Positions 1 to 33,900 of a stretch of 37,071 nucleotides of DNA are shown here, in pieces. Source of the stretch: an uncultured Gammaproteobacteria bacterium. Lineage in GTDB: Bacteria; Pseudomonadota; Gammaproteobacteria; Pseudomonadales; Azotimanducaceae. A program made the position numbers and the translations under genes. Location: the NCBI GenBank assembly GCA_913050035.1, contig CAJXAC010000020.1, forward strand, positions 1 to 37,071. Direction: 5' to 3'. The notes beneath the pieces were generated by a model. The model worked only from the letters and a program-made list of their open reading frames with translations. It was not told the DNA's origin and ran no database searches. The stretch's first letter is position 1, and each line of letters starts with the position of its first letter.

Positions 1-988
1 TTAATGAAAATTTTACAAAAAAAGTAAAAAACAAAAATGTGCTAGACACTGCACTAAAAAACTGGCAAAAGAAATATGAAAACATAGGATGCGTAACATC
101 AAGTTATACGCCGAAATACGAGATTTTAGTCCATCGTAGATTGGGCTGTCTCAGCAAAAGTTACATGTTAGAGGCCGTTCGTCATAAATCAATTCGCGGC
201 CTTGAAAAACTAGATAAAAAGAAAATTGAAGAATGCATAGGAATGGGTAGCGGTCTCCCGTGTATGGGCTGTCAAGCCAAGGCAAACGCCCACGTATTAT
301 CGAGAAGAACAAGGGGCCAAGCCAATGACAGTACATACAGAAATATACCAAAATCATTACCAATGCAAACTGAAATAGACATTGCTACTGATACGTTTGG
401 TCCGTTTACACCAAATTATCAAGGTATTAGATATGCACAAATTTTCATAAATACCAGCAGCAGAATGGCATGGTTGTATCCTATGCGAGCGCGTAGTGAA
501 TATCCATTTGCATTGAAACAATTCCTGCTTGATTACAAGTCCAATTATCCATCTAAAACAAGACCGGTCATATATCAATCTGATTATCAAACCACCTTTC
601 AAGGTACAGTAGATGGAAAAATAGACATTATACGCTCAGACAGAGCACCAGAATTATCATCAGAAGAGGTGAATCTTATTTTGAGTGATTATGACATAAA
701 ACACTTGAAAACAATAGCATATACATCAATAATGAATGCAAAAGCTGAAAGAGCTATTCAAACTTTGAATAAAATAGCGATTTCACAATTAGCAAATGCG
801 AATCTAACAACAGAAGAATACAAATTATGTTACTGGAAAAGTTTAAAACATGCAGTCCATGTTTACAACATAAGGCCGCATCGCAGTTTAGGATATCAAA
901 CTCCGTATTATGCACAAACAGGTGTAATTCCCCACATAGACTGGATCAGGACGTGGGGGAGCACTGCATTTGAGCATTTAAAAATACA
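1..988. mobile_element. AT-rich foreign segment carrying copia-like integrase
   Basis: Composition changes abruptly near 985, from AT-rich sequence with many A and T runs to roughly 50% GC. The left segment holds only the integrase frame. The right side enters the middle of a bacterial dehydrogenase gene. No terminal inverted repeat, LTR or target duplication can be seen, because only one end of the segment lies in the window. It may be a genuine insertion or an artefactual join. The exact breakpoint lies between about 980, where copia similarity fades, and about 992, where dehydrogenase similarity begins. Confidence 0.6.
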
Positions 989-1094
989 ACAACGGATGAC
1001 TTCAAGCTCGTTGTCGAAGTCCATTTGTTGGGGTCTGCCTACGTCACCCACGCCGCTTGGCCTTTTATGTATGAGCAGAACTACGGAAGAATAA
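3..1094 (+). CDS. Ty1/copia-type retrotransposon integrase, partial
   Basis: The frame is open from the left edge, so the GTG at 39 is only an apparent start and the 5' end is missing. Counting from that GTG (351 codons), residues 32-36 (HRRLG) and the C75-x2-C78 pair resemble the GAG-pre-integrase zinc finger of copia polyproteins, although the usual second His after RLG is Cys. The integrase core follows: D118 (in ATDTFGPF), then the typical G-x-RYAQIFI and WLYPM segments, D201 (in IIRSDRAPEL) and E237 (in NAKAERAIQTLN). D201 and E237 are separated by exactly 35 residues, so the catalytic triad is intact. Copia-like YW, NIRPHRSLGYQTPY and TWGSTAF blocks follow to about residue 315. No reverse transcriptase, RNase H or LTR is present. 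Beyond about position 985 the frame reads into unrelated DNA. Codon use is AT-rich, unlike every other gene here. A bacterial rve-family transposase is the alternative. Confidence 0.72.
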   Translation, partial: NENFTKKVKNKNVLDTALKNWQKKYENIGCVTSSYTPKYEILVHRRLGCLSKSYMLEAVRHKSIRGLEKLDKKKIEECIGMGSGLPCMGCQAKANAHVLSRRTRGQANDSTYRNIPKSLPMQTEIDIATDTFGPFTPNYQGIRYAQIFINTSSRMAWLYPMRARSEYPFALKQFLLDYKSNYPSKTRPVIYQSDYQTTFQGTVDGKIDIIRSDRAPELSSEEVNLILSDYDIKHLKTIAYTSIMNAKAERAIQTLNKIAISQLANANLTTEEYKLCYWKSLKHAVHVYNIRPHRSLGYQTPYYAQTGVIPHIDWIRTWGSTAFEHLKIQQRMTSSSLSKSICWGLPTSPTPLGLLCMSRTTEE

Positions 1095-1549
1095 TCCTCA
1101 CATCGTCGGTTTCGGGGATTTTCGGACAGTTTGGTCAGAGTGCTTATGGTGCAGCGAAAATGGGCATGCTGGGACTAATGAATGTTCTAGCATTAGAGGG
1201 CAGATCCCATGGGATCAAAATAAACTGCCTCTCGCCTGGTGCCGACACTCGAATGACGGCACTAGATAAAGAGCTTGGTATTGATGCAGATAAACCAAGA
1301 CCTTACTCTCATCCCAAACTGGTAACACCAGTAGCCCTATTCTTGGCCAGCGATGACGCTCCTACTGGTATGGTTATCCATGGACTAAGTGGCAGATATT
1401 TACGCTCGGAAACCTTTGCCAACAAAGGTATATCCCTTGACCCAGACGCCCTCGCGGAAGATCTGATGAGTAACATTGAGGACGTTTTAGACATGTCTAG
1501 CGCTAAAGCGCTTGCCGAGCCGGGCAATATCTCGTTATTGGGAAGCTGA
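989..1549 (+). pseudogene. 5'-truncated short-chain dehydrogenase (MFE-2/hydroxyacyl-CoA DH-like)
   Basis: Similarity to short-chain dehydrogenases begins in this frame at TTDDFKLVVEVHLLG (about 989) and continues through the catalytic Ser region (ILTSSVSG), the Tyr-x3-Lys motif (SAYGAAK) and the NCLSPGADTRMT segment. The ALEGR, SRMT-like and C-terminal NKGISLDPDALAED parts resemble the dehydrogenase domain of peroxisomal-type multifunctional enzymes and bacterial 3-hydroxyacyl-CoA dehydrogenase relatives. The N-terminal Rossmann half with the TGxxxGxG nucleotide motif is absent. An in-frame TGA at 971-973 lies upstream, inside the AT-rich segment. The TTG at 1025 is the first nominal start but has no ribosome binding site and falls within the fold. 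The gene as it stands cannot make a working enzyme. It converges on gspM, with 13 bases between the stop codons. Confidence 0.75.
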
Positions 1550-1562
1550 TAAAAAAGGCGCT

Positions 1563-2075
1563 TTAATTTACTAGCTTAACCTGCCCGCTCACCTTGCTGC
1601 TCTTATCGCCACGATCAATGGATAATCTTTCAACGCTGAGTCCTTGTGTGGTTTCTAACAAAGAAAGCCACTGTAGGACTTGATCAAATTGCTGCTCTTG
1701 TAAGGAGATGCTAACGCCTCCATCGGACTCTGGTTGCAGCCTGTCGAGTTTGAGTTGGTTTTGGTTTGCGGCGTTAGTAATGCTGGGTATTAATGCCGGT
1801 GAGCTATTGCCACGAACTGGTTGTCTTGCGCTTTGTCTTAACGCTTCTTGGTTCAAGACGATCCATTCAGACAGCGCTAATTCGGTAACGTAGCGTGCTT
1901 GTTGGTCTTGGCTGTAGTCGCTAAGCGGTTTCCACACTGCTGTATAAATAATGGTGGCTGCGATAAGTGCGGCTAAGATCTTTATGATCAGTCGATCTGT
2001 CGGCGATTTCGCTGCATACCATTGGCCTATACTGCCTTGCTGCAACTGAGCTATCAGATTTTGTACGGTACTCAT
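1563..2075 (-). CDS. gspM: Type II secretion system protein GspM
   Basis: 170 residues. GspM (XcpZ/EpsM) is a bitopic inner-membrane protein that partners GspL in the assembly platform and helps place the GspE ATPase. The sequence has a short cytoplasmic tail, one membrane helix at about residues 29-48 (LIIKILAALIAATIIYTAVW) and a periplasmic region ending in a ferredoxin-like domain (about 95-170), the usual layout and length. The start ATG overlaps the gspL stop by four bases (ATGA), implying translational coupling. It is the last gene of the gspE-M run. No gspN follows, and the next sequence is the convergent truncated dehydrogenase. The family is poorly conserved in sequence, so the assignment leans on position and topology. 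Confidence 0.9.
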   Translation of the reverse strand: MSTVQNLIAQLQQGSIGQWYAAKSPTDRLIIKILAALIAATIIYTAVWKPLSDYSQDQQARYVTELALSEWIVLNQEALRQSARQPVRGNSSPALIPSITNAANQNQLKLDRLQPESDGGVSISLQEQQFDQVLQWLSLLETTQGLSVERLSIDRGDKSSKVSGQVKLVN

Positions 2076-3331
2076 TTTATGTACTTCGCTCGCAGTCGTG
2101 CACTTATGCCGCCGTCTATTGATCCCGCGCTGACCACGTCTATATCGACACCCCGGCTTTTTAGTTCGGTCTGAATCTGATCTACCTGATCGTAGCCTTT
2201 GAGCTCCATTTCAATGGTCATTTCCTCTTTATCTTGTAGATAGGACAGTGACTGAACGCTGCCCTTACTACCGAATATTGGCGCAGTGTCGCCAAGCAAC
2301 TGAACAAAACTCATAGGCCCCACGCTAACCTGCTGTCCTTGGCTTCTTAGCTTGCCCTCGAATCGACGTCGGAGCTGTGCCGCAGTTATGGGCACCGAGT
2401 CTTGGGGAAATAGCTCCACGTAGCGGTTTCTGTTGTCCGCGGCCAATTGTTCTGCCTGATAGGATGACCACATGCCTTGGACGCCGAGTCCTGCGATGTA
2501 AATTACCACCCAAACCGCAGCCAGCTTTGCCAGCATGGTGAGGTCTTGCTTGCTGCCCGTTTTCTTATTTGCTACCCCATAGGGGCCTTGAAATAGATTG
2601 ATTGGCTTGCGTCTGGCGTATCGCTCAACCAAGAATTTAGCGACGTTATTCTGTTGCTCTACCGCAACTTCGGCGTCTAACTGACTGCGCTCTAGATCGG
2701 ACAGTTCATCGCCCACTGTTATTAATTGAGTGACGGATAGATCTTCCAGCAGCCCAATGAGCTCTTCTCGCTCTACGGTCGCACTTGATTGCTCATATAC
2801 CGCGGTGGCCTGATGGTCATTCAGAAATACGGTGCAGTCTTCGGTTGCGGATGCTAACTGAGCTTCACTGACCAGCACATCAGCAGCAATATCGTACGTG
2901 GCTAACCAGTCTCGCCAACCAGCTATTTGAGTATGATCAATAAGCGCACAGTGGATAGTTTGCCCGGCCTTTATGGCTCCGGGGACGATATGCATATCCT
3001 CGATGTCTGCCGCCACATACTCTTCTAATGCGTAAGGTAACGCCTGGCGTATTTGGTTACTGTTGCGACCTGGCACCTGACACGACAGCTGCAATACCTG
3101 CTCAGTAGGAATAACCACAACGATATCGGCGCTCGCCAACACCTCGCCTTCTAACGAATCTAAATGCTGACCCAGCGTTCGCCCTGTTGCCTGACCCTGA
3201 GCGACGATCTGGTCTTGGCGCGCTACCACCCACTGCAGCGCATAATCGGCTTCCGAATTAGCGCCTGCAGCAACGTCCACATTCTGCTGGTCAGCCGCAT
3301 TGTCTAAAATTCTAAGTAGTAGCGTTGTCAT
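2072..3331 (-). CDS. gspL: Type II secretion system protein GspL
   Basis: 419 residues, normal for GspL (XcpY/EpsL). It is the inner-membrane protein whose cytoplasmic actin-like domain recruits GspE and whose periplasmic ferredoxin-like domain pairs with GspM. The cytoplasmic domain covers about residues 1-245, including the family-typical VPGRNSNQIRQALPYALEE stretch near 87-104. It is followed by the INLFQGPY block at 244-251 and a single membrane helix at about 266-288. The periplasmic part ends in a ferredoxin-like fold. The start ATG overlaps the last base of the gspK stop codon (TAATG), and the stop overlaps gspM by four bases, so K, L and M should be translationally coupled. Confidence 0.93.
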   Translation of the reverse strand: MTTLLLRILDNAADQQNVDVAAGANSEADYALQWVVARQDQIVAQGQATGRTLGQHLDSLEGEVLASADIVVVIPTEQVLQLSCQVPGRNSNQIRQALPYALEEYVAADIEDMHIVPGAIKAGQTIHCALIDHTQIAGWRDWLATYDIAADVLVSEAQLASATEDCTVFLNDHQATAVYEQSSATVEREELIGLLEDLSVTQLITVGDELSDLERSQLDAEVAVEQQNNVAKFLVERYARRKPINLFQGPYGVANKKTGSKQDLTMLAKLAAVWVVIYIAGLGVQGMWSSYQAEQLAADNRNRYVELFPQDSVPITAAQLRRRFEGKLRSQGQQVSVGPMSFVQLLGDTAPIFGSKGSVQSLSYLQDKEEMTIEMELKGYDQVDQIQTELKSRGVDIDVVSAGSIDGGISARLRAKYIK

Positions 3332-25345: not shown

Positions 25346-26197
25346 ATGCGCGCGCTCAAAAAATCTTCCCGCCCGGTCAATACACAGGACTTACTGAAAC
25401 ACCCATTACTATGGCGGGGCCAACAGCTCACACAACCTGGAAGCCAACCGACTGTTAACAGCGGGTTTAGCCGTTTAGACAAACAACTGCCTGGCCATGG
25501 CTGGCCATTGGGCGGTCTGACAGAACTGCTTTTGGCCCATGCAGGGATAGGCGAACTGCGTTTATTACTGCCAGCTCTGACCAAGCTACAAAGCAGCCCA
25601 CACAGCACCTGGAGTGTATGGATCAACCCACCCTTTGTGCCCTACGCACCGGCACTACAGGCCGCAGGCATCAATCCTCGACATCTTCTGTTGGTACATC
25701 CAAAAACCACTGAGGACTTTCTTTGGGCGCTGGAAGCCGCCTGTAAATCTGTATCCTGCGGCGCAGTACTGGCATGGCCAGTTGCGGATAAACTTAAGCC
25801 CCGGGATACCCGACGCATTCAAATAGCCGCCAAACAGGGTCAAACATTAGCCTGCTTGTTCCGCCCCTTAGCCCAACGCCATAACAACAGCATGGCCGAA
25901 CTTAGGCTAGCTCTACATCCGGGCGAGCATTCACAACATCTGCTTGTAGACATTATTAAGCGCCGTGGCGGTTGGCCTATCGAGCAATTGCACTTAACCC
26001 TTACCGATGCAACTGATTCTGTGCATACCGATGCCCAGCATGTGCAGGCGCTGTTTAGAGACTGGCAAGTTAGCCAACAGCGCCAAGTGGTAATGCATGC
26101 GCGGACAGCAGAAGTTGACGACTCTGTGCTGGCGGCAACAATCGAGGCCAATCTGCATCAAGCACCAAGGCCAACAACCGGACATGCATTGCATTAG
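25346..26197 (+). CDS. imuA: SOS mutagenesis protein ImuA (SulA/RecA-like)
   Basis: 283 residues. ImuA is a RecA-like accessory factor of the ImuA-ImuB-DnaE2 mutasome that performs error-prone translesion synthesis. The N-terminal part contains SGFSRLDKQLPGHGWPLGGLTELLL, the RecA/SulA-type entry to a degenerate P-loop (AHAGIGELRLLLPAL), and WVNPPF-like and LLLVHP blocks typical of the family. The C-terminal half (MAELRLALHPGEHSQHLLVDIIKRRGG) also matches. It lacks a clean Walker A and is probably not a normal ATPase. It is the first gene behind the LexA box. The stop lies six bases before the imuB ATG. Confidence 0.92.
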   Translation: MRALKKSSRPVNTQDLLKHPLLWRGQQLTQPGSQPTVNSGFSRLDKQLPGHGWPLGGLTELLLAHAGIGELRLLLPALTKLQSSPHSTWSVWINPPFVPYAPALQAAGINPRHLLLVHPKTTEDFLWALEAACKSVSCGAVLAWPVADKLKPRDTRRIQIAAKQGQTLACLFRPLAQRHNNSMAELRLALHPGEHSQHLLVDIIKRRGGWPIEQLHLTLTDATDSVHTDAQHVQALFRDWQVSQQRQVVMHARTAEVDDSVLAATIEANLHQAPRPTTGHALH

Positions 26198-26203
26198 CGT
26201 TTC

Positions 26204-27631
26204 ATGCTCTGGCTTGCACTGTATTTCCCCCAACTGCCGTTAGAGGCATTTACTGCGTCCAGTTACATCGCGGGCGATCAGAGCGCACAAGTTGTACTGG
26301 AGCAGAACCGTGTGCACTTGGCTAATAGTGCCGCAATGTCAGCAGGTATTGTGCCGGGTTGCTCACTGGCCACTGCTCACAGCATCGAACCCTCTTTAGA
26401 GCACTTCCGACGTAACCCAAGCCGAGAAGCCATAGAGCTGCAGAAACTGGCTGAGAGCCTTTATTGCTTCAGCAGCCTTGTTAGCCTTGCCCCGCCTGAC
26501 AGCATCGTTCTGGAAATACACGGCAGCTTAAAACTCTATACCCAAGCAGATTTATTGATGGCGGCAAAACAGTTATGCCAGAAACTAGGGTTTAGCTGTT
26601 TAACCGGCGTAGCCAGTACGGCTACCGCTGCAATTACGCTAGCGCGCTGCCAAAGCCGACGCCTTAACGATGCTCTATTGAGCCGTTGTGGCCTTGAGCA
26701 CCAACACATCAAAAACCAAGTTATTGAACAACTGGCAAACATGGGCCTGCATACATTAGGTAGTTTATTGTCTCTGCCCAGAAGCGAAGTAGCCCAGCGT
26801 TTTGGCAAAGAGCTGGGGTTCTATCTAGATAAATTAGAGGGCAAGCGCCGCGAACCCCGTGATGCCATCCAACCCACTGCAACGTTTCAACGCAAATTAC
26901 ATCTATTACAGCCCATAACGAACAAACAGCACCTGCTTAAAGGTCCGATGGCAAAGCTGGCTTTAGAGCTACAACAGTGGTTGATTGGTCATCAACAGGG
27001 GTGCGAGAAACTCACTTGGCGCTTCGTTGAACACAGCACCAACGCCAGCACACTGTATGTGCGTTTTACTCAAGGCCGACAGCTGCAGTCGGAGCTGTTA
27101 TCGGTAAGCCACTTACAACTTGAGCAGGCCACCCTCCCCGCGGACGTGCTTAGCGTTGAACTGAATCTTATTGCAAGCGCGCCTTGGTCAGCACAATCCA
27201 AAGATTTATTTTCAGCAAATCAGGGCGCTAATAATAACGGCCAGAATATTGGCGAATTGGTGGATACATTAAGTGCTCGGCTAGGCCCCCAGGCGTGCCA
27301 ACAAATTCACGGCCATAGCCAGCACACCCCAGAACACGCATGGCGCTTTCAGGCGGTTCTACAGCCAACTAGGCACGCAACAGATAACTCACATAATCAA
27401 GCCAGCCGCCCCTTATGGCTATTACCTAAGCCACACCCGGTTAAAGCCACAGAGCTGCAGTTGCTACAAGGGCCTGAGCGCATTCAAAGCGAGTGGTGGC
27501 GTAATAGCGACGCGCGAGATTACTACATAGCCCAACACCAAAGCGGTGCACTGTGCTGGGTTTATAGCCCCTGCGCTACTTTTGGCGAACCGCCAAGTCA
27601 TGAGTTCTATCTACACGGCTACTTTGCATAG
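26204..27631 (+). CDS. imuB: ImuB, catalytically inactive Y-family polymerase-like protein
   Basis: 475 residues. ImuB is the scaffold of the mutasome, linking DnaE2 and ImuA to the sliding clamp. The Y-family fold is recognisable (LALYFPQLPLEAF at the start, ETF-like LEIHGSLKLY, TGVASTATAAITLAR, LPRSEVAQRFGKEL), but the acidic catalytic residues of Pol IV are replaced: the DxD position reads LYF and the DE position reads EIHG. This is the family's hallmark. A clamp-binding-like motif QSKDLF is at 331-336, just before the ELVDTLSARLG segment. It sits six bases after imuA and precedes dnaE2. Confidence 0.93.
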   Translation: MLWLALYFPQLPLEAFTASSYIAGDQSAQVVLEQNRVHLANSAAMSAGIVPGCSLATAHSIEPSLEHFRRNPSREAIELQKLAESLYCFSSLVSLAPPDSIVLEIHGSLKLYTQADLLMAAKQLCQKLGFSCLTGVASTATAAITLARCQSRRLNDALLSRCGLEHQHIKNQVIEQLANMGLHTLGSLLSLPRSEVAQRFGKELGFYLDKLEGKRREPRDAIQPTATFQRKLHLLQPITNKQHLLKGPMAKLALELQQWLIGHQQGCEKLTWRFVEHSTNASTLYVRFTQGRQLQSELLSVSHLQLEQATLPADVLSVELNLIASAPWSAQSKDLFSANQGANNNGQNIGELVDTLSARLGPQACQQIHGHSQHTPEHAWRFQAVLQPTRHATDNSHNQASRPLWLLPKPHPVKATELQLLQGPERIQSEWWRNSDARDYYIAQHQSGALCWVYSPCATFGEPPSHEFYLHGYFA

Positions 27632-27645
27632 CGGTGCTTAAACAC

Positions 27646-30600
27646 ATGAAGACTAAGGACATACAATTTGCGGAACTGCATTGCCTAAGCAATTACAGCT
27701 TTTTGCGTGGGGCCTCGCACCCCGAAGAACTTGTAACGCGCGCTTATGAATTGGGCTACCAGGCCCTAGCGCTGACCGATGAATGTACTTATTCGGGTTT
27801 GGTTAAAGCCCATATTGCCGCAGAAAAACTCAGCATAAAGCTTATTGTTGGCGCTGAATTCAGTGTTAAAACTGAACCTGACAGTATTACCGCAACCGAA
27901 AAACTAATACTACTTGCCCCCACCCGCAGTGCTTACGGCCAACTGTCTGCATTTATCAGCACATTACGCCGGCGCTCAGATAAAGGCCGCTACGATGCTC
28001 GGCTTAACGACTTTAGCTTTGGGTTAAAAGACTGCATTGCACTCTGGGCACCCAGCCAACAGGCGATTGATTTACAGATGGCCCTTGGCCGCCAAATTAA
28101 AACTGCACTGCCTAAACTGTGGTTGGCATTAGAGCTATTCCATGACGGCCACGATCTGGATAAAACAGCCCATATACTGACACTGTCCTCGCGCTTACAG
28201 CTGCCCATAACAGCCGCCAATAACGTTCATACACACCTGCGAGAACGTCAGCCGCTGCAGGATATTCTTACCGCCATACGGCATAAAACAACGTTAAATG
28301 GGCTTGGGCATCACGCCTTCAACAACAGCGAGCGCACCCTGCGATCGTTAGCTGAACTGGCCAGCATTTATCCTATTGAACTGCTGAATGAAACCATGCG
28401 TATCGCTGACCTGTGCCAGTTCAACATGAGCGAACTGCGTTACGAATACCCAAAAGATTTAGTGCCGCCTCATCTCACAGCAGCACGTTATCTACGCCAG
28501 CTGACATTTGCTGGTGCTGCGGAGCGTTGGCCTGAAGGCATACCCAGCGACACACTAGAGTTGATTGAGAAAGAACTGACACTGATCGGCAAACTCAACT
28601 ACGAACATTATTTTTTAACCGTACAAGACATCGTGCAATTTGCGCGCAGCAGAAGAATTTTATGCCAGGGCCGAGGCTCTGCAGCGAATTCAGCGGTCTG
28701 TTATTGCTTATTTATTACTGAAGTTGACCCAGCGCGCATGCATTTATTGTTCGAGCGGTTTGTATCTATGGAGCGCAACGAGCCGCCGGATATCGATGTA
28801 GATTTTGAACACGAACGTCGCGAAGAAGTGATTCAGTACATCTACACCCGCTACGGGCGCGATCGTGCAGCACTGGCCGCAACATTGGTCACCTATCGTC
28901 CACGCAGTGCAATCAGAGATGTTGGTAAAGCTCTCGGCTTTGATCTGGATGCGCTTGAGTTATTAGCAAAATCTCTAGCCTGGTGGGATAAAAATCAAGA
29001 CATCAGCGAACGCTTACGCAGTATTGGCATCGATCCCGACAGTGTTAAGGCCCAACACTTTGTGCGCTTTATAAGTGCGATTATCGGTTTTCCACGCCAC
29101 CTCTCACAGCATGTAGGCGGCTTTGTTATTGCCAGCGGCCCAGTTACTCAATTGGTACCCGTTGAAAATGCCGCCATGGCTGAGCGCACGGTTATTCAAT
29201 GGGACAAAGAAGATCTTGAGGCGCTGGGCTTACTAAAAGTCGACGTTCTGGCCTTGGGTATGCTTACCGCAATCCGTAAAGCTCTAGATCTTTGCAATGC
29301 TGATCCACAGCAAACGGATCCGTTAACCATTCAAGGGATCCCTGCCGAAGATCCAAAGACCTACGACATGCTGCAACAAGGCGACAGCATTGGTGTCTTT
29401 CAGGTTGAATCTCGCGCACAAATGGCGATGCTGCCGCGCTTAAAACCAAAATGCTTCTACGATCTGGTTATTGAAGTTGCCATTGTCAGGCCAGGCCCAA
29501 TACAGGGTGATATGGTGCACCCCTACCTGCGCCGCCGACAGGGTCTAGAAAAACCAACTTATTTAAGTCCGGAAGTTGAACGGGTTTTAGAGCGCACATT
29601 AGGTATCCCCATTTTTCAGGAGCAAGTGATTGAGTTAGCCATGGTGGCGGCCGGATTCAGCGCAGGCGAAGCGGATCAATTAAGACGCGCTATGGCGGCC
29701 TGGAAACGACGCGGCGGATTAGAGCAATTCCGCCACAAACTAGTTACGGGCATGCGAGCACGAGGTTACAACCAAGATTTCGCCGAACGCGTGTTCAACC
29801 AAATTAAAGGATTTGGCGACTATGGTTTCCCAGAGTCTCATGCCGCCAGCTTTGCGCTATTAGTGTATGTATCAGCCTGGCTGAAAAAGCATAAACCTGC
29901 AGCGTTTTACTGCGGCTTATTGAATAGCCTACCTATGGGGTTTTATTCACCCTCACAATTAATTCAAGATGCCGAGCGCCACGGTATAGAGATTCGCCCC
30001 ATAGATGTCCGCATAAGTCAGTGGGATCACACACTGGAGCGCCGCAGTTCAACAACAGCTAATGCTGACTCGCACAGATGGGCGCTGCGCTTAGGATTAC
30101 GCTTGGTTAAAGGGTTAAACAAGACCCATGCAGAGCGCATCATGCAGGCTCAGGCCGTGGCGGCAATTAAGGACAGCCAAGATCTAGCCACACGCGCCCA
30201 ACTCACAAATCAACAACTGGGCTTTCTGGCCCGTGCAGGCGCATTAGCCAATCTTATCGGCCACCGGCATCAGGCCCATTGGGAAGTTGCTGGAATCACG
30301 CCACCGCTACCCATTCAACACAGCCCAATAACGCAAAAAACAGCTACAACTCACTTACAGCCGCCCACTCAGCACAAAGACATGCTCGACGATTATCGCT
30401 ATACCGGACTAACCCTGGGCGCGCACCCTATGGCGCTGCTGCGTAACCATGATGACTTCTTAGAATTTTGCACAGCAGAACAGTTAGCGCAAAAACGTCC
30501 GGGGCAGCTGGTACGCATTGCCGGACTGGTTACCGGGCGGCAGCGTCCGGGCACCGCCAGCGGTGTGGTTTTTCTAACTCTAGAAGATGAAACCGGCAAT

Positions 30601-30813
30601 ATTAATGTCATTATTTGGTCGAGCATCATGAACCGCTTTCGTGCCGCACTGCTGCAAAGTCGGTTACTGAAAATTAAAGGCGTGGTGGAGCGCGAAGGGC
30701 TGGTGATTCACGTTGTGGCTGGGCACGTAGAAGATATCAGCCACATGTTGCACAATGACCCGGAGCATGCAGACGAGCATCCAGACGTCTTTCGCTCCAG
30801 AGATTTTCATTAG
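27646..30813 (+). CDS. dnaE2: Error-prone DNA polymerase III alpha subunit DnaE2
   Basis: 1055 residues from the ATG at 27646. A GTG four codons earlier (27634) is in frame and two bases after imuB; neither has a clear ribosome binding site. DnaE2 (ImuC) is the polymerase of the SOS mutasome. The N-terminal PHP domain starts FAELHCLSNYSFLRGASHPEELV. The C-family catalytic acids are D382, D384 and D386 in PPDIDVDFEHERR. The polymerase core includes QGRGSAANSAVCYCL, FPRHLSQHVGGFV, VDVLALGMLTAI and GFGDYGFPESHAASFALL. The tail has an OB fold (VRIAGLVTGRQRPGTASG). The length and YCL/QHVGG variants fit DnaE2 rather than replicative DnaE (about 1160). Confidence 0.96.
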   Translation: MKTKDIQFAELHCLSNYSFLRGASHPEELVTRAYELGYQALALTDECTYSGLVKAHIAAEKLSIKLIVGAEFSVKTEPDSITATEKLILLAPTRSAYGQLSAFISTLRRRSDKGRYDARLNDFSFGLKDCIALWAPSQQAIDLQMALGRQIKTALPKLWLALELFHDGHDLDKTAHILTLSSRLQLPITAANNVHTHLRERQPLQDILTAIRHKTTLNGLGHHAFNNSERTLRSLAELASIYPIELLNETMRIADLCQFNMSELRYEYPKDLVPPHLTAARYLRQLTFAGAAERWPEGIPSDTLELIEKELTLIGKLNYEHYFLTVQDIVQFARSRRILCQGRGSAANSAVCYCLFITEVDPARMHLLFERFVSMERNEPPDIDVDFEHERREEVIQYIYTRYGRDRAALAATLVTYRPRSAIRDVGKALGFDLDALELLAKSLAWWDKNQDISERLRSIGIDPDSVKAQHFVRFISAIIGFPRHLSQHVGGFVIASGPVTQLVPVENAAMAERTVIQWDKEDLEALGLLKVDVLALGMLTAIRKALDLCNADPQQTDPLTIQGIPAEDPKTYDMLQQGDSIGVFQVESRAQMAMLPRLKPKCFYDLVIEVAIVRPGPIQGDMVHPYLRRRQGLEKPTYLSPEVERVLERTLGIPIFQEQVIELAMVAAGFSAGEADQLRRAMAAWKRRGGLEQFRHKLVTGMRARGYNQDFAERVFNQIKGFGDYGFPESHAASFALLVYVSAWLKKHKPAAFYCGLLNSLPMGFYSPSQLIQDAERHGIEIRPIDVRISQWDHTLERRSSTTANADSHRWALRLGLRLVKGLNKTHAERIMQAQAVAAIKDSQDLATRAQLTNQQLGFLARAGALANLIGHRHQAHWEVAGITPPLPIQHSPITQKTATTHLQPPTQHKDMLDDYRYTGLTLGAHPMALLRNHDDFLEFCTAEQLAQKRPGQLVRIAGLVTGRQRPGTASGVVFLTLEDETGNINVIIWSSIMNRFRAALLQSRLLKIKGVVEREGLVIHVVAGHVEDISHMLHNDPEHADEHPDVFRSRDFH

Positions 30814-33810: not shown

Positions 33811-33900
33811 GGAGGGATGGCAGAGCGGTTGAATGCACTGGTCTTGAAAACCAGCAAGGTGTAACAGCCTTCCAGGGTTCGAATCCCTGTCTCTCCGCCA
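33811..33900 (+). tRNA. tRNA-Ser(UGA)
   Basis: A complete class II tRNA of 90 bases with encoded CCA. The acceptor stem GGAGGGA pairs with TCTCTCC (one G-U), the anticodon stem CTGGT pairs with ACCAG, and the loop CTTGAAA gives anticodon TGA, reading UCA and UCG serine codons. The long variable arm (CAAGGTGTAACAGCCTT region) is typical of tRNA-Ser. The T arm is CAGGG-TTCGAAT-CCCTG. I see no copy of its 3' end nearby, so there is no sign of an integrated element. Confidence 0.97.

Follow-up and report, generated by a model that had tools for sequence, protein, structure and literature searches.

The left end of the window (the whole of draft contig G000:C20, 37,071 bases) is very probably chimeric, a fragment of the pol frame of a eukaryotic copia element having been joined there to bacterial DNA, either because a library molecule was chimeric or because the assembly went wrong. 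The fragment would be part of the pol frame, comprising a pre-integrase finger and an integrase core, of a Ty1/copia-type LTR retrotransposon from a eukaryote, probably a protist of the plankton that was sampled together with the bacterium. Its attachment to the bacterial contig end may have come about in the library, by template switching or by ligation, or along an assembler path, and the fragment would not be a working element of the bacterium. The evidence consists of an open frame, weak domain matches, a composition break, the location at the end of a contig and a sharp seam that falls within a gene left uninterrupted in relatives. The assembly itself is a draft of 120 contigs and 2,615,385 bases (91.67% complete). 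An earlier note on this DNA had proposed a copia copy resident in a bacterium, with a chimeric join as a serious alternative. The first proposal is unsupported, as the fragment lies at a contig end, its frame is cut at the seam, the seam is intragenic and none of 39 other same-genus genomes carries it. The alternative has become the best explanation, given the contig end, the cut frame and a seam placed in a host SDR gene that is intact in six relatives.

The open frame runs without a stop from base 3 to base 1094 on the plus strand, with a foreign part from base 3 to about base 971. This fragment is open at the left edge of the contig and is cut within its own frame at the seam; beyond the seam, the frame continues out of frame relative to the SDR gene. 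The frame had previously been drawn at 3-988, and although its openness is real, its foreign part stops at about 971-977. Its 324 stop-free codons (3-974) compare with a longest run of 197, in any of the six frames, among 2000 mononucleotide shuffles. The translation of 3-974 was used as the Pfam query, and all residue numbers given here are counted from base 3. The features of the fragment are as follows.

3 to 971, plus strand: putative piece of a copia-type pol frame, covering the last part of the pre-integrase region and the integrase core, recognised by the open frame, Pfam matches below cut-off and outlying GC3 and tetranucleotide composition.
123 to 239, plus strand: gag_pre-integrase-like stretch, residues 41-79, with H44-x4-C49 (PF13976, E 0.0032).
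261 to 272, plus strand: C87-x2-C90, second half of a presumed zinc finger, read from the sequence.
390 to 392, plus strand: D130, presumed first catalytic aspartate.
408 to 722, plus strand: match to the rve integrase core, residues 136-240 (PF00665, E 7e-4, below cut-off).
639 to 641, plus strand: D213, presumed second catalytic aspartate.
747 to 749, plus strand: E249, presumed catalytic glutamate.

All three of the Pfam matches lie under their gathering scores: gag_pre-integrs, rve and rve_3, the last at residues 237-301 with an E-value of 0.0038. A GAG-pre-integrase-like remnant had been claimed for this frame, and the match does fall in the right place, albeit with the sub-gathering E-value listed above. 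Taken alone, the finger is at noise level across genomes. At E-values up to 0.01, gag_pre-integrs matches were obtained in 21 of 398 genomes of the phylum (own genome included), none of them above cut-off, and those in the other 20 of 397 presumably arose by chance. Four matches were returned from the genome itself when E-values up to 10 were admitted, the best being that of the window. The match nevertheless carries weight because it stands in the same frame as the integrase core and directly before it, such that finger (41-79) and core (136-240) follow one another in order, each below its gathering score.

The candidate triad D130/D213/E249 has 35 residues between D213 and E249, which is the DD35E spacing, and 82 residues between D130 and D213. 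It is identical to the D118/D201/E237 triad described earlier, which was counted from the GTG at base 39, and the reported DDE arrangement is thereby borne out. The copia finger usually takes the form H-x4-H; in the fragment this appears, as we read it, to be replaced by H-x4-C, with C87-x2-C90 assumed to supply the second half of the zinc finger. We further take the D130-D213 gap to be longer than is usual in copia, and the blocks following the integrase core look copia-like to us when judged by eye. A sequence search of the PDB returned only three weak matches, all to unrelated proteins (best E 0.017), and AlphaFold2 run without an alignment gave a mean pLDDT of 33, too low for use.

The composition of the fragment sets it apart from the remainder of the contig, and the break coincides with the seam. 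GC content is 0.368 over 1-970 versus 0.513 over 1001-37071. The GC3 of the fragment is 0.306, compared with a minimum of 0.435 among 74 host-gene stretches of equal length, and its tetranucleotide distance is the largest among 373 sliding windows. The AT-richness noted earlier is confirmed by the GC values. The tetranucleotide distance of 1-970 (0.573) also exceeds that of all 40 other contig ends sampled, two each from 20 of the 120 contigs; the next most deviant were the tail of C12 (0.481) and the start of C19 (0.429). Bad ends are thus not common in the assembly, which counts somewhat against its being generally poor.

Two of these ends have features of their own. The C12 tail, second most deviant of those sampled, has a GC content of 0.44. 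The C19 start consists of approximately 520 AT-rich bases (1-520, 34.6% GC) adjoining a tRNA-Pro gene (524-600, minus strand), and a 74-residue frame within it shares 56% identity with part of a resolvase-encoding IMG/VR contig; this is possibly a tRNA-integrated island or a second foreign join.

On its right side, the fragment passes into an SDR oxidoreductase gene of the host. The features around the seam are as follows.

969 to 979, no strand: seam between the copia-like frame and the SDR gene of the host, with a few bases that could be assigned to either side (homology of six relatives starts at 972-977; G015).
974 to 1549, plus strand: C-terminal part of the host SDR oxidoreductase gene, starting near codon 106 of 296 (adh_short, E 1e-20; six orthologs).
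1563 to 2075, minus strand: host gene beside the SDR gene, occupying the place of GspM in a type II secretion cluster (neighbour GspL).

The last of these frames matched no NCBIfam model at E-values up to 1e-5, and its neighbour at 2072-3331 is GspL. Orthologs of the SDR gene were sought in 38 genomes, comprising the genome itself, 24 of the same genus and 13 of the same order. Uninterrupted copies were found in G015, G013, G024, G002, G004 and G022, with 89-93% identity, lengths of 296-332 codons and no stop within the match, whilst the weaker matches in the remaining 18 same-genus genomes are presumably paralogs. At the DNA level, homology to the six relatives, all of the same genus, begins at 972-977. 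Bases 975-1014 of the window recur unchanged in G015, and only 11 of 41 bases match just upstream (before 972), which is about chance level. From this alignment, the copia-like frame turns into SDR codon ~106 within a few bases, and any microhomology shared at the seam would amount to at most a few bases. G004 matches the window past the SDR stop to base 1594, where the G004 contig ends; the host DNA after the seam is therefore genuine.

The missing portion of the SDR gene was not recovered from elsewhere in the assembly. A 527-base query from G002, which spanned the beginning of the SDR gene, some sequence upstream and ~100 bases beyond the point of the seam, was used in a DNA search at E-values up to 0.001, and hit only C20:972-1070 through its bases 429-527. 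The gene upstream of SDR in G002 and G015 likewise found best matches of no more than 66% identity in the assembly, and its ortholog seems to be absent. Both the missing SDR start and the missing upstream gene fit a contig that simply ends at the seam. The two sides of the locus differ in one further respect between relatives: G002 carries an aldehyde dehydrogenase gene (Pfam Aldedh) between SDR and the type II secretion genes, whereas in the window (1550-1600), as in G004 up to its contig end, SDR is directly followed by the secretion side. Within the genus, a gene has thus been gained or lost at this locus.

The position of the seam bears directly on whether a normal LTR-retrotransposon insertion, with a full element, LTRs and a target-site duplication, could have taken place in the bacterium. 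The pre-integrase and integrase blocks do stand in copia order. However, host DNA takes over within the pol frame, at a point where an LTR would be required, and no direct repeat of at least 14 bases, and so no LTR pair, is present within 1-1600, the left side falling outside the contig. A normal insertion would meet the host at an LTR and not in the integrase frame, and we have dropped this explanation as having next to no chance of being correct. Nor does a reverse transcriptase follow the integrase, the frame being cut at the seam before any such domain. RVT_2 was absent from the genome itself and from the 398 genomes of the phylum (own included), a result of little weight since 14 of 14 control genomes were likewise silent. 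The fragment can, in any case, derive from a copia element without itself being one.

Relatives of the integrase are similarly lacking. It was found in one of 40 same-genus genomes, its own, at E-values up to 0.01. None was confirmed in the genome_contigs set, the viral_contigs set (three scans), phages or plasmids, in scans by tblastn or by exact matching of short peptides, methods that would overlook distant copia kin; the exact seam pattern occurred 0 times in viral_contigs. A title-level search of the literature on bacterial copia and on copia in draft genomes, which is not proof of absence, showed among the titles listed none on a bacterial copia element.

A genuine transfer could also account for the join, a eukaryotic copia fragment having entered the SDR gene by illegitimate recombination and disrupted it. 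The uninterrupted frame and the few bases, at most, of microhomology at the seam fit a recent join of this kind, and the host bases after the seam are genuine. Moreover, a real insertion would produce the same picture of a host gene uninterrupted across the seam in six relatives. Against this, the fragment lies at the end of a contig and lacks a left junction, none of the 39 other same-genus genomes searched contains it, and the failure to find the SDR N-terminal part elsewhere in the assembly fits a contig break as well or better. We consider such a recombination very improbable, and would give equally long odds to its fuller form, namely a recent transfer of protist DNA into a marine gammaproteobacterium, caught before decay and with the SDR gene disrupted.

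The nature of the protein is a separate matter. The integrase of a Ty1/copia element is the best available reading of its sequence, and the source of the fragment is presumably eukaryotic. This reading is preferred because of the domain order, the motif blocks, the want of a helix-turn-helix (HTH) domain and the low identity to true IS481 transposases. Ty3/gypsy integrase was considered and dropped, Pfam having given gag_pre-integrs and no gypsy-type finger family in its scan of the fragment.

A divergent bacterial transposase of the IS481/IS3 kind, truly belonging to the genome, has some points in its favour. The best profile score of all was to the NCBIfam IS481 model (NF033577; residues 140-302, E 4e-10), and PHROG transposases matched the frame with an E-value of 2e-9, although these scores come from libraries limited to prokaryotic and phage models and the matches span the catalytic part only. 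The earlier note had set best matches to IS481/IS3 against its copia assignment; the top profile is indeed IS481, which taken literally would cast doubt on the copia reading, but in a comparison confined to such models. Matches to the frame were also found in four of the 398 phylum genomes (own included). Besides the genome itself these were G341, with five places at 33% over 95 residues, G250, with one at 35% over 92 residues, and G054, with a single stop-broken stretch at 28% identity to the integrase frame. One of the five frames in G341 and the one in G250 were scanned as controls, and both proved to be true IS481 transposases, at 300 and 304 bits.

Conversely, the window frame scores 39.7 bits against this same model, whose curated cut-off over the whole protein is 224. 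Both IS481 controls show several HTH families as well as IS481 zipper domains, and the window frame shows neither, carrying instead the gag_pre-integrs match with its CxxC; no HTH family was found in the fragment by Pfam at E-values up to 1, its N-terminus possibly lying outside the contig. Furthermore, the frame, read as a transposase, reaches host DNA at the seam without meeting a stop, its composition is foreign to the host, and it is absent from the 39 other genomes of the genus. We therefore regard a resident transposase gene as unlikely, albeit the least unlikely of the alternatives to a chimeric end.

Returning to the chimeric join, which would be artefactual in nature, several observations count against it. 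The frame is without a stop, as that of a recent real insertion also would be. The best-scoring profile is bacterial (IS481), and the copia-related Pfam matches are all below gathering scores. The seam shows no long overlap by which an assembler merge could be explained, and the 40 other ends are less deviant.

The sampling background of the contig is presumably marine, as judged from its relatives. Relatives of the nearby GspL gene occur in records of three MAGs, namely ARS1012 (two loci), MED824 and UBA2955. G002:C50 is 100% identical to the ARS1012 record across the 1,965 bases that they share, and G015:C52 to the MED824 record across 2,817 bases. The prefix NZEI falls within the range of accessions given by the Tara Oceans MAG project (PMC5769542). 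That project worked with viral, girus, bacterial and 0.8-5 um protistan size fractions, and its primary contigs were merged where they overlapped by 100 bases at 95% identity (PMC5769542). A merge by a long overlap is less likely here because the possible overlap at the seam is short. The reverse transcriptase domains found most abundantly in ocean surveys belonged to the lineages Ty3/gypsy, Copia and RAS, those of Copia being among the most abundant for LTR elements (PMC2806351).

Elsewhere the window contains host genes of familiar kinds. At 25346-30813, ImuA (NCBIfam, above cut-off) is followed by a frame that NCBIfam left unnamed at E-values up to 1e-5 and then by an error-prone DNA polymerase of the DnaE2 type. 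We take the middle frame to be ImuB by position, and the whole looks like the usual mutagenesis cassette. An ordinary tRNA-Ser (tga) gene lies at 33811-33900.

A genuine join would directly document the presence of eukaryotic retroelement DNA within the chromosome of a bacterium. As a likely artefact, it is a warning that contig-end scraps of retroelements in draft genomes of bacteria can give rise to false reports of transfer between domains and to wrong annotations.

With IS481 transposases, the fragment shares an rve-type catalytic core (residues 140-302). It differs in the lack of a detected HTH and in placing 163 residues on 137 profile positions, which implies extra residues inside the core. 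With Ty1/copia pol, for example that of the diatom CoDi elements (PMC2806351), it appears to share the order of gag_pre-integrs then rve in one frame. The DD35E spacing is also common to the fragment and copia, and is found in other rve-type enzymes besides. The fragment differs from Ty1/copia pol in that it represents the integrase segment only, with Pfam matches all below cut-off, and the window lacks a protease, reverse transcriptase, RNase H and LTR. The remaining comparison is with chimeric contigs of MAGs, which one study (PMC8862208) attributes to the merging of similar regions, whereas the present seam has no long shared stretch; an assembler merge is no likelier here than a chimeric library molecule. 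In their other features the two cases are alike: those contigs (PMC8862208) likewise have a foreign contig end, a seam inside a gene and a break in composition.
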